52,752 nt of DNA from a virus. The notes beneath the pieces are model-generated. The model made no database searches and had not been told where the DNA came from. It worked only from the letters and a program-made list of their open reading frames with translations. Positions 2,410-44,720 of this stretch are shown here, piece by piece; within the stretch, counting starts at the first letter, position 1, and the number at the start of each line of letters is the position of its first letter. The position numbers were made by a program, and so were the translations under genes. The stretch spans positions 1 through 52,752 of the IMG/VR virus record IMGVR_UViG_3300029985_000054; one strand, 5' to 3'.

Positions 2410-3780
2410 TTAAATAATTGTGTAAGTAATATTTTTATATATTACTCCTAGATATATATTAATTTCAACCGTTCCCGTAGTATTCGCCACGAAATGTTCA
2501 TTTGTACCGTCAAAGTACGTGCTTAATAAAATAGAATCTTGGGTATAAAATTGGGTATAATATACTATAGGTTCTGGTAATACTATAGGTTCAGCAGATA
2601 TGGGTGTTATTGTAACCGTATAATCTGTTCCATGTGTTAAGGTGTTTCCACTTGGAATAGGACTTAAGGATACTATAAAGTCTGTAATATCACCACTACT
2701 AGAAATACCACTATATCCCAATGCTTGAGCTAATTTATTAGGATTATACTGAATACATGCCACATTATTTTGTCTTGGGTCTCCAAGATAAGTGTCTGCA
2801 ATATAAGCCAAATGTAGGTCATCAGCTGTATATGTGTAATATACATTTAATAATAAATAAGGAGGAACTAGTCTTCTTATAAACCAATTTAGTTCTGTCT
2901 TAAATTCATTTGATAACACATTACTATCGGCTAATATAAATATTGAAATAGTATAATCATTTACCCCAGGGAAATCATTACCTCCATTAAATATACATTG
3001 CCCTAATTTATTTAAATTTAAAATAAAAGAGGCGCTAATATTATTAATTGTAGATTCCCCTATTAATACAAACTTTTTTACTCCTAGTCTAAAATTTATA
3101 TATTGAGAGATATTATAAGCTAAAAAATATGGATTGGTGTTATTATTTATATTGGTTTGATATAATAATTGTAATAACGCAGGATAATTTGTATTACTCT
3201 GGTAATATAAAGCATTAGTTCCTAATAATGCTTGTTCCCATGCTGGATTACCACTGTTGGGAAATAAATTAGCAGATACTGTAGTTAAATCAGTAAATGC
3301 GACACTCTGAGTATCAGATAGTATAGTTTGCAGCAAAGAGCTATCGTATATCTGCGCTAATGTAGTAGCAGTAGCTGTATTATCACAAAATACTGGAGAG
3401 TTAGGATTATTAGAGGTGGTATAAACACCTTTGGGTAAGTAACTTATAAAGTTTCTATATAAATTATTTATAGTGGGCAATGATAAATTCTGCACAAAAC
3501 ATAAAGAAAAATATTGCGGAGGATTATTTAAATATGTGATTTTTAAATATACTGTTATATTTTGAGTGCTGCCCTGCACAAATAAACTTGCAGTATTAGT
3601 AGCGCTGTCTATATCTATAATAGATGCGCCTACTGTAGGTTGTAATATTTGAATTGCTGCATCAAGAGTAACATTAATTATACTATAATCATTAGCAATC
3701 CAACCAATTTGAAATGGGGATAATGTTCCTATATATGATGGGTTAGGAAATAAATAAAATACTAATTTATTGTTTCCCAT
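2410..3780 (-). CDS. Baseplate wedge protein, Mu gp48 / P2 gpI-like position
   Basis: 456 residues; the ATG overlaps the upstream stop (TAATG). The middle contains WEQALLGTN and, near residue 305, RRLVPPYLLLNVYY, compatible with the family of Mu gp48 and P2 gpI, which connects the wedge to the tail fibres. The gene comes right after the J/gp47-like wedge gene, as expected. It is longer than typical gpI proteins; the last about 110 residues (NPLTHGTDYTV-type beta sequence) look like an added fibre-contact domain. Assignment is mostly from gene order. Confidence 0.65.
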   Translation of the reverse strand: MGNNKLVFYLFPNPSYIGTLSPFQIGWIANDYSIINVTLDAAIQILQPTVGASIIDIDSATNTASLFVQGSTQNITVYLKITYLNNPPQYFSLCFVQNLSLPTINNLYRNFISYLPKGVYTTSNNPNSPVFCDNTATATTLAQIYDSSLLQTILSDTQSVAFTDLTTVSANLFPNSGNPAWEQALLGTNALYYQSNTNYPALLQLLYQTNINNNTNPYFLAYNISQYINFRLGVKKFVLIGESTINNISASFILNLNKLGQCIFNGGNDFPGVNDYTISIFILADSNVLSNEFKTELNWFIRRLVPPYLLLNVYYTYTADDLHLAYIADTYLGDPRQNNVACIQYNPNKLAQALGYSGISSSGDITDFIVSLSPIPSGNTLTHGTDYTVTITPISAEPIVLPEPIVYYTQFYTQDSILLSTYFDGTNEHFVANTTGTVEINIYLGVIYKNITYTII

Positions 3781-36902: not shown

Positions 36903-36970
36903 GTTTGATGTTCTTTGGATTGCATTAAAAAGTGGTTATTGACAATAAATTTAATTGTAAGGAAGCTATA

Positions 36971-37516
36971 ATGATTAAAAAATACGAATTAATAAAAACA
37001 GATACAAAAATTTGTCTTGGTAAAACTTTATTCAGAATTAAAGCTTTAGTATCTTTTGGTGATGTGACAATTGGTGAGCTTGGGGGATATGTTAGCGACG
37101 AAAATTGCTTACAAAATGAGTTTAAAGGAAAAGTTACGGATAACAGCGTGCTGAATAACAGCATCGTGGATAACAGCATCGTGAATAACAGCGTGGTGGA
37201 TAACAGCGTGGTGAATAACAGCGTGGTGGATAACAGCGTGGTGGATAACAGCGTGGTGAATAAAAAAAGTGAAAAAAATGATGGAGAAATTGCTATGGAA
37301 GATGCGATTGAATTTACTTTTAGTAAAGCATTGAAACTTATTAAAAAAGGATATAGGATATACCGCAAAGGTTGGAATGGTAAAAATATGTATTTAGAAT
37401 TGCAAACTCCTGATGAAAATTCTAAAATGTCATTACCGTATATTTATATGAAAACAGCATGTGGTAATAAAGTGCCGTGGATAGCCTCACAAACTGATTT
37501 ATTAGCAACTGATTAG
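36971..37516 (+). CDS. Fusion: phage beta-repeat domain plus Tad2-like (DUF2829) domain
   Basis: 181 residues from ATG 36971 (AAGGAAG upstream; a GTG at 36932 is less likely). Residues 1-55 match a phage family with the core LFRIKALVSFGDVTIGELGG, normally followed by beta-helix repeats; here eight pentapeptides [DN]NS[VI][VL] follow (57-96). Residues about 109-181 are DUF2829: FSKALKLIKKGYRIYRKGWN, then PYIYMKTACGNKVPW and SQTDLLATD. DUF2829 includes Tad2, which sequesters the Thoeris signal molecule. The frame ends in TAG exactly where the family has Trp; the following codons read HVLE and then TAA. An internal ATG 37295 with GGAG could produce Tad2 alone. Confidence 0.8.
   Translation: MIKKYELIKTDTKICLGKTLFRIKALVSFGDVTIGELGGYVSDENCLQNEFKGKVTDNSVLNNSIVDNSIVNNSVVDNSVVNNSVVDNSVVDNSVVNKKSEKNDGEIAMEDAIEFTFSKALKLIKKGYRIYRKGWNGKNMYLELQTPDENSKMSLPYIYMKTACGNKVPWIASQTDLLATD
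37139..37258 (+). repeat. 15-bp coding minisatellite, eight units
   Basis: Eight head-to-tail units of [GA]ATAACAGC[GA]TG/[AC]TG type encode DNSVL, NNSIV, DNSIV, NNSVV, DNSVV, NNSVV, DNSVV, DNSVV. The DNA is GC-richer than its surround and the last units are almost identical, indicating recent expansion by slippage. Since a unit has 15 bases, copy number can change without breaking the frame. Confidence 0.9.
37295..37516 (+). CDS. Possible stand-alone Tad2-like product (internal start)
   Basis: ATG 37295 is in frame, preceded by GGAGAAATTGCT, and begins MEDAIEFTFSKAL, which is how free-standing DUF2829 proteins usually start. The product would be 73 residues, close to the family size. Whether both the fusion and the short form are made is not decidable here. 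Confidence 0.5.
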   Translation: MEDAIEFTFSKALKLIKKGYRIYRKGWNGKNMYLELQTPDENSKMSLPYIYMKTACGNKVPWIASQTDLLATD

Positions 37517-37544
37517 CATGTTCTTGAGTAAGAAATATTGTATA

Positions 37545-37604: not shown

Positions 37605-37748
37605 ATGTTGTACGATGATTATATTGATAATAAAATGGACAAGTGGAATTGTCGAAACGATGGCAGATGTCAACGTTGTGGTACTGCTGAGTTCGAGTGG
37701 GACATTTATGTTGGTCGTGATGAACAAATTTGTGGAGATTGTGAATGA
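37605..37748 (+). CDS. Zinc-ribbon mini-protein
   Basis: 47 residues after AAAGGAATAAATT. Cysteines in CRNDGRCQRCGT and CGDC near the C-terminus give two pairs typical of an HNH-like or zinc-ribbon hairpin, with no nuclease residues visible. Real gene by ribosome site and Cys pairs; function unknown. Confidence 0.65.
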   Translation: MLYDDYIDNKMDKWNCRNDGRCQRCGTAEFEWDIYVGRDEQICGDCE

Positions 37749-37968
37749 CATTAGTAACATATTATGCAATTATGAGAGAAGTTTAAAAGCGATTGACACC
37801 CTCAAATTATATATTGATGGGATTGCAACTTTTGAAGAGTTAACCAATGCTGCTGATGCTGCTGATGCTGCTGCTTATGCTGCTGCTTATGCTGCTGATG
37901 CTGCTGCTAAAGAAATGCAAACTAATTTGCAATTAGATAAATTAGTCGAGATTTTGGAGGGTAAATAA
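37720..37968 (+). CDS. Ala-rich repeat protein of a phage/immunity-like family
   Basis: 82 residues from ATG 37720; start uncertain because neither this ATG nor GTG 37741 has an ideally spaced ribosome site, while an out-of-frame ATG 37745 does. Pattern LKAIDTLKLYIDGIATFEEL then (AADAADAAAYAAAYAAD) and a helical end is that of a widespread phage and bacterial family with AADAAYAA repeats, sometimes called putative immunity protein. Encoded by GCT-rich DNA (37850-37910) that may vary in length. Confidence 0.6.
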   Translation: MNKFVEIVNDISNILCNYERSLKAIDTLKLYIDGIATFEELTNAADAADAAAYAAAYAADAAAKEMQTNLQLDKLVEILEGK

Positions 37969-38228
37969 TGGACTTTATAAATATGACTAGCACAGGTAAA
38001 GCGACTATTGAGGTTGATGTGAAAAAGTATAACCAAATGTTGTTGGATTGCCACAAATTAAATTTATTAGAATGTGGAGGGGTAGATAATTGGGAGGGGT
38101 ACGCTGTGTCATTTTTCCCAGATTATTTTCTAGATTATGATTCAAGATTTGAAGTAGATGGTGAGGTCTACTTTGGATTTTATTCTTATAAAAAACAAAT
38201 GGAACGTGCAAATAATTTTAAGGAGTGA
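37968..38228 (+). CDS. Hypothetical protein
   Basis: 86 residues, TAATG overlap and GGAGGG before the ATG. Acidic and aromatic (EGYAVSFFPDYFLDYDSRFE, EVDGEVYFGFYSYKKQ). Not recognised. It precedes the recombination genes and is likely co-transcribed with them. Confidence 0.5.
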   Translation: MDFINMTSTGKATIEVDVKKYNQMLLDCHKLNLLECGGVDNWEGYAVSFFPDYFLDYDSRFEVDGEVYFGFYSYKKQMERANNFKE

Positions 38229-43249: not shown

Positions 43250-43533
43250 TGCAGAAACTAATTGACAATATACTTATCATAGCGTTGCTGTCAACGATGA
43301 GATTGTTGCAGGGATGCTCTACAGTGCAATATGTAGATAAACCACACTTACCCACCATACCATCATATTTTATGCAGCCATGCGAAGATTTGCCTACTTT
43401 AAACAATGGTTCTCAACGTGAGGTTGTGAAGGTGTTGTTTGCAGATGCTGTAGTTTATAAAGATTGTGCAAATAGGTATAAAGGTCTACAAGATATATTA
43501 ATTAAATTTAAACAAAATATGGAGGGTAAATAA
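43249..43533 (+). CDS. Outer-membrane spanin candidate (Rz1-like lipoprotein)
   Basis: 94 residues. Hydrophobic signal IIALLSTMRLLQGC with lipobox LLQGC places Cys23 as the lipidated residue; the mature part begins STVQYVDKPHLPTIPSYFMQ, Pro-rich as in Rz1 proteins, and has PCEDLPTL and Cys near DCANRY. Together with the candidate at 42747 it forms the last lysis step in Gram-negative hosts. Not nested inside the Rz gene, unlike lambda. Confidence 0.75.
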   Translation: MQKLIDNILIIALLSTMRLLQGCSTVQYVDKPHLPTIPSYFMQPCEDLPTLNNGSQREVVKVLFADAVVYKDCANRYKGLQDILIKFKQNMEGK

Positions 43534-44720
43534 TGAAATATATAAATTCTGGTAAGAATCTAGTAAAAATATGGACTAATGATATAGAAAAAGAAGCAGA
43601 AGAACAGTTGTTAAATTTAAGCAATTTGCCATTTATATACAAACATATTGCTGTAATGCCAGATGTACATGCGGGAAAAGGGTCAACAATAGGTACAGTG
43701 ATAGCTACCAAGGGAGCTGTATGCCCTGCTACAGTTGGGGTTGATTTAGGGTGTGGAATGACTGCATTAAAATTACCTTTTAAGGTTGATGTTATTATGG
43801 ATAAACTTTTATTAATAAGGCATTCTATCGAAAGGGCTGTACCTGTTGGATTTAATAAACATAGTATGATAGACACTAATAGAGGTTCTATTTTAACTGA
43901 TATTCTGGGAGATGATTTAACATGCTTTGACAAAGATAGGGGTAAATTATTAACTAATGCTGGTTTGCAATTAGGAACTTTAGGAGGAGGAAATCATTTT
44001 ATTGAAATTTGTTTTGATGAAAATGCAGATGCTTGGATAGTCTTACATACTGGTAGTAGAAATATAGGTAAAATGATTGCAGAAGTTCATATAAATAAAG
44101 CTAAGGGTTTAATGAAATCTTATTTTATAGATTTACCAGACCCAGATTTATCTTATCTTGTCCAGAATACTTTAGAATTTGATAATTATATACATGATAT
44201 AAATTGGGCTCAAAAATATGCTTATGAAAATAGAGAACATATGCTAAAAAATATTTTAGCAGAAATAGCTTATTATGCGTATGGAGATAAAGATATATCA
44301 AGATTTGACACTTGTTTAAAAATTAGCTGTCACCACAATTATACTACAATGGAAAATCATTTTAATAAGAATGTTTTAGTTACAAGAAAGGGTGCTGTAT
44401 CTGCAAAATTAGGTCAATTAGGTATTATCCCTGGTAGCATGGGTGATAAAAGCTATATCGTTGAGGGATTGGGTAATATTGAGTCTTTTTGCTCCTGTTC
44501 TCATGGAGCAGGTAGAAGAATGTCTAGGAATAAAGCAAAATCAATATTTACTATTGATGATTTAATTAAGCAAACATCTAATGTGGAATGCAGAAAAGAT
44601 GCAGATATAATTGATGAGATTCCTGGAGCATATAAAAATATTGATGAAGTTATGGACAACCAAAAAGATTTAGTAAAAATATTACATACATTAAAACAAA
44701 TTATTTGTATTAAAGGGTAA
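43533..44720 (+). CDS. rtcB: RNA ligase RtcB
   Basis: 395 residues. Signature elements: MPDVHAGKGSTIG (42-54), VDLGCGM with Asp71 and Cys74, LGTLGGGNHFIE with Asn154/His155, LHTGSRNIG with His172, CHHNY with His267, RKGAVSAKLGQLGIIPGSMG (285-304), and SHGAGRRMSR with His324, the residue that accepts GMP. The set is complete, so it should ligate 2',3'-cyclic phosphate to 5'-OH RNA ends. In phages it may repair tRNAs cut by host anticodon nucleases. Overlaps the upstream gene (TAATG). Confidence 0.93.
   Translation: MKYINSGKNLVKIWTNDIEKEAEEQLLNLSNLPFIYKHIAVMPDVHAGKGSTIGTVIATKGAVCPATVGVDLGCGMTALKLPFKVDVIMDKLLLIRHSIERAVPVGFNKHSMIDTNRGSILTDILGDDLTCFDKDRGKLLTNAGLQLGTLGGGNHFIEICFDENADAWIVLHTGSRNIGKMIAEVHINKAKGLMKSYFIDLPDPDLSYLVQNTLEFDNYIHDINWAQKYAYENREHMLKNILAEIAYYAYGDKDISRFDTCLKISCHHNYTTMENHFNKNVLVTRKGAVSAKLGQLGIIPGSMGDKSYIVEGLGNIESFCSCSHGAGRRMSRNKAKSIFTIDDLIKQTSNVECRKDADIIDEIPGAYKNIDEVMDNQKDLVKILHTLKQIICIKG

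Follow-up and report, generated by a model that had tools for sequence, protein, structure and literature searches.

Tad2 proteins are tetramers that bind gcADPR, His-ADPR and cyclic dinucleotides. In the solved YdcK protein, short repeats form a left-handed beta-helix. Members of the YdcK-like family share one layout: the cap is constant, the stack of short repeats behind it varies, and the C-terminal modules are exchangeable. Most complete relatives of the cap carry a C-terminal segment behind the repeats, and these segments are of several unrelated kinds. The Tad2 family holds nucleotide immune signals of Thoeris and CBASS (PMC12043709), and both His-ADPR and gcADPR are held by Tad2 (PMC13299392). 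Here we analysed a viral reading frame in which a YdcK-like cap and its repeats are followed by a Tad2-like domain.

Results

The fused reading frame and its neighbourhood

The window, that is, the whole stretch of 52,752 bases analysed here, is a virus record with a GC content of 32% that includes head and terminase genes of tailed-phage type. Open-frame analysis and domain searches revealed an ORF of 181 amino acids (36971-37516, + strand) comprising the cap, 5-residue repeats and the Tad2-like domain. A Shine-Dalgarno-like AAGGAAG (36959-36965, +) lies ahead of its ATG at 36971. The ORF sits between leftward genes, which reach 36604, and a rightward block that encodes a gp5.9-like gene, DUF1351, an AAA_24 ATPase, SSB, RtcB and RusA. 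It is most likely an accessory phage gene, and early expression is plausible because it opens the rightward block.

Several neighbouring frames were recorded in addition. An 86-amino-acid frame (37968-38225, +), located two frames past the Tad2 gene, matched the T7 gp5.9 RecBCD inhibitor family (PF25708, E=3.2e-8); it is likely a second counter-defence gene in the same block as Tad2. Within 37605-37968 (+), a 47-amino-acid frame with four cysteines in a zinc-ribbon-like arrangement (CQRCG...CGDCE) overlaps, in a different frame, an Ala-rich frame (AADAADAAAYAAAYAADAAA), of which the virus locus L092 contains a longer relative with a different Ala-rich stretch. The RtcB-type RNA ligase (43533-44720, +; PF01139, E=3e-117) possibly repairs cleaved tRNA.

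A YdcK-like cap is followed by five-residue repeats

PHROG, NF040481 and profile matches assigned the N-terminal cap (RIKALVSFGDVTIGELGG; 36971-37111, +) to the YdcK-like family. The N-terminal half matched PHROG 5070, 7964 and 20149 with E-values from 1e-15 to 1e-17, while its match to the YdcK family model NF040481 (E=8.5e-8) was partial and stayed under the model's own cut-off. A profile built from the phage relatives of the cap matched E. coli YdcK (2F9C/2PIG) with E=1.6e-20, and the cap contains the GELGG motif that characterizes the family.

Behind the cap, Tandem Repeats Finder detected a 15-bp tandem array (37140-37263, +; 8.3 copies, 89% match) coding for (D/N)NSVV-type 5-residue repeats from amino acid 57 to about 98. 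The initial annotation had called these pentapeptide repeats. The length of five residues and the underlying 15-bp array are real, but a Pfam search gave no match to the pentapeptide-repeat family. CfAFP was rejected as well, since its match was weak (E=0.025) and under the cut-off. The fused ORF contains about eight such repeats, whereas in the relatives of the cap the repeats are six residues long (GNAWVY type); judged by sequence, the 5-residue period is thus a departure from them. A full-length structure model, built on a ten-row alignment, was poor (mean pLDDT 51), and neither the fold of the repeats nor the arrangement of the two halves is readable from it; the same applies to the multimerising or positioning role that the initial annotation had suggested the repeat part may have.

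Searching with the repeat DNA gave one match elsewhere, an unrelated array in L340 outside the annotated frames there. On the opposite strand of the window, a 147-amino-acid frame (36925-37368, -) is open right across the repeat array and is likely a by-product of the repeats. L208 contains a cap-family frame (2432-3379) that runs through its repeat array in the wrong frame (GRCQSMGRCLGIW...), which is a sign of frameshifts in such arrays. Some viral contigs (L243, L247, L218 and L256) contain several adjacent cap-family genes, each with a repeat stack of its own.

The Tad2-like domain is preceded by an internal start

Amino acids 116-181 (37316-37513, +) matched positions 2-69 of the 73 positions of the Tad2 (DUF2829) profile PF11195 with E=1.7e-21 and a score of 77 bits, compared to a Pfam gathering cut-off of 25, so the original naming of this domain stands. 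By sequence, the solved proteins closest to it are SPO1 Tad2, SptTad2, AcrIIA7/HgmTad2 and ModTad2. Between the Tad2 part and its relatives pN amounts to 0.21-0.30 and pS to 0.59-1.03. Changes are thus found mostly at silent sites, which argues for a lineage under selection; the comparison points to purifying divergence of the Tad2 part from its relatives.

An internal ATG at 37295 directly precedes the domain, at its border, and 8 nt upstream of this ATG lies a GGAG (37283-37286, +). The initial annotation had already proposed that Tad2 could be released from an inner start, and such a product would be 73 amino acids long (37295-37516, +). Searched by itself, this part matched PF11195 with E=1.8e-22. 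Comparable ribosome-site motifs are common ahead of gene starts in the window (24 of 35) and rare ahead of internal in-frame ATGs (12 of 217), which makes a free Tad2 plausible.

The combination of cap, repeats and Tad2 was found once

The pairing had been described as unfamiliar, and our searches agree. Profile searches for both domains in one protein, run over every frame of 338 loci (254 Tad2 and 126 cap frames), found the two together only in the window's own protein. These loci came from scans of IMG/VR, GTDB and phages; the first two of these contributed the best 80 loci each, so that rarer cases may be missed and the absence is a sampled one. With the whole protein as tblastn query, none of the hits in 50,697 phage records covered both halves, and no record with both halves was obtained among 72,556 plasmids. 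Nor did a second fusion turn up in 398 and 298 genomes drawn from two phyla. The fused protein was also unmatched in the nearest virus kin, L338 (TerL 70%) and L092 (DUF1351), where empty answers are weak evidence; no close relative with this gene is thus at hand that would speak for an inherited fusion.

While the majority of the Tad2 frames found begin less than 20 amino acids from the domain, 71 distinct frames have N-terminal extensions of at least 40 amino acids, 41 of one recurrent kind and 13 of another. N-terminal additions to Tad2 are thus common, and only the partner made of cap and repeats is new.

The fusion itself, as first annotated, is real in the given sequence, where a single open frame (36971-37516, +) joins the repeat part to Tad2. 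The linker between them contains two runs of seven A (37262-37268 and 37272-37278, +) and an out-of-frame TGA at 37270-37272. With an eighth A in the first run, the cap frame would end in AAG TGA; the GGAG and then the start codon of a Tad2 of normal size would follow, and this two-gene layout would be ordinary. The locus might therefore consist of two neighbouring genes, one for a short repeat protein of YdcK-like type and one for Tad2 by itself, that seem fused through an error of one base or a recent indel within the A run. Both the start position of most Tad2 frames, within 20 amino acids of the domain, and the lack of a second cap-Tad2 fusion among phages, plasmids and the 338 loci are consistent with such neighbours. 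However, the given sequence is open throughout, and a TGA in another frame is a possibility rather than evidence, because such stops are not rare in AT-rich DNA and at 32% GC are common by chance. In addition, the split version would leave the repeat protein without the C-terminal segment that most complete cap relatives carry. A Tad2 module behind repeats fits both families, since cap relatives vary C-terminally and Tad2 often follows another segment. We therefore regard two separate genes as unlikely.

An amber codon replaces the terminal tryptophan of Tad2

The initial annotation had overlooked that a TAG (37514-37516, +) takes the place of a near-invariant Trp, with four further codons between it and a TAA. 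Alignments of Tad2 frames placed this TAG at the position that opens the last beta strand, and the Tad2 end of the window reads ...LLATD-TAG-HVLE-TAA. A terminal DW occurs in 197 of 207 distinct Tad2 frames, and seven of the other ten end in DY or NW and so keep an aromatic residue. Thus, the motif or an aromatic residue is kept in 204 of the 207 frames, while the terminal D-W/Y and the last strand are absent here. Besides this window, the frames without the aromatic residue are those of L115, a remnant that lacks the front half of the domain, and of L080, which has an altered end. The commonest tail after the Trp is four residues long (100 frames), and HVLE has the same length; by this comparison, HVLE-TAA (37517-37531, +) is the remainder of a normal-length Tad2 tail. 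Among the relatives compared, the codon at the Trp position was TGG, or TAT in one case, and the other conserved residues of the domain are retained in the window. The simplest reading of these alignments is that one base of the Trp codon has changed.

We built a structure model of the Tad2 part (37295-37528) with the TAG read as Trp. This read-through form reached a pLDDT of 91.8, its last strand starts at the Trp position, and it aligned to solved Tad2 chains with Z-scores of 10.7-12.2 over 71-75 residues. The Sm-like Tad2 fold was thus found for the read-through form, whereas the form as encoded is represented only in the poor full-length model. Outside Tad2, the structural comparison gave its best match with 8QKH, a phage 812 neck protein (Z=6.7, 14% identity) that may have the Sm-like fold in common with Tad2.

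According to a review of solved structures, the gcADPR pocket is formed by loops 1-2 and 3-4, strand 4 and helix 3 (PMC12043709). All of these elements fall upstream of the TAG in the window. Loss of the tail would therefore be more likely to harm folding than to remove a binding residue. Since the TAG sits at the first residue of the last strand, this strand is missing as sequenced, and without read-through of the TAG the present Tad2 copy is probably impaired.

The amber codon could also mean that the gene is decaying, with an inactivated Tad2 part and a fusion that is now a functionless relic. Its position at a near-invariant aromatic residue fits decay, and so does the company in which it is found, the remnant in L115 and the altered end in L080 being the only other frames without that residue. 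Any loss would have to be recent, however, as the rest of the domain keeps its conserved residues; moreover, the loss amounts to just five residues, and no pocket element past helix 3 is named in the review (PMC12043709). We consider decay a serious alternative, though on balance a doubtful one.

Conversely, the protein might be functional, either because the TAG is read through or because the repeat stack stabilizes the short Tad2. The normal tail that is still encoded after the TAG, followed by a TAA, the usual stop here (28 of the 34 long frames in the window end in TAA), would suit read-through, but a recent mutation would leave an identical tail. No tRNA gene, and hence no suppressor tRNA, was found in the window. 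TAG serves as the ordinary stop of the terminase frame and of one further gene, which also speaks against read-through. Given this use of TAG, the predominance of TAA and the lack of tRNA genes in the window, reassignment of TAG to a sense codon was rejected as unsupported. A functional protein therefore seems quite improbable to us.

Discussion

We favour, at slightly better than even chances, an accessory and probably early phage gene for a YdcK-like protein with a Tad2 module, the present copy of which is probably impaired. The product would be a modular beta-helix protein carrying Tad2 as its C-terminal module, with the repeat stack serving as a spacer. Judging from the Tad2 family, its ancestral role was likely the capture of a host defence signal. 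Tad2 could additionally be produced by itself from the inner start, so that two products might be made, and the amber codon at the start of the last strand would impair the present product unless it is read through.

By analogy with the Tad2 family, signal binding and an anti-Thoeris role may be proposed; the anti-Thoeris claim is weakened because Tad2 as sequenced is without its last strand. A working sponge would combine a Tad2 held on a beta-helix arm, the length of which varies by 15-bp slippage, with free Tad2 from the inner start, and would gain the last strand only via read-through. We think this very improbable. Given the TAG at the Trp position, the single example and the A run, we hold the importance of the locus down accordingly. 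If the fusion is real and expressed, Tad2 sponges could be attached to a repeat scaffold of variable length, and the widespread YdcK-like phage repeat proteins would be carriers of exchangeable modules, some of them anti-defence, which would give a first handle on their role. If the amber codon has disabled the gene, the locus would merely record a recent loss.

Among known systems, SPO1 Tad2 (gp34.65; PDB 8SME/8SMF/8SMG) shares the domain and the fold with the Tad2 of the window. It aligned to the read-through Tad2 part over 74 residues with Z=11.9 and 39% identity, and both have conserved GWNGK and SQTD stretches. SPO1 Tad2 is a standalone protein of 89 amino acids that ends in EDWDIV. In contrast, the N-terminal half of the protein described here is built from repeats, its middle loop is shorter, and a stop codon occupies the Trp position. 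Extended Tad2 proteins (PHROG 1048, PHROG 872 and AcrIIA7, 9KZR) likewise carry Tad2 C-terminally, behind another segment. The extensions that recur in them, either of a YIGVK...RGW type or consisting of a second DUF2829-like copy, have no relation to the cap and repeats described here. YdcK and the phage GELGG repeat proteins (2F9C, 2PIG; PHROG 5070 and 7964) share with the window the cap (RIKALVSFGDV..GELGG), the short repeats and a variable C-terminus. They differ in their repeats, of six residues (GNAWVY type) compared to five in the window, and in their C-termini, since all 126 cap frames found at other loci lack a Tad2.
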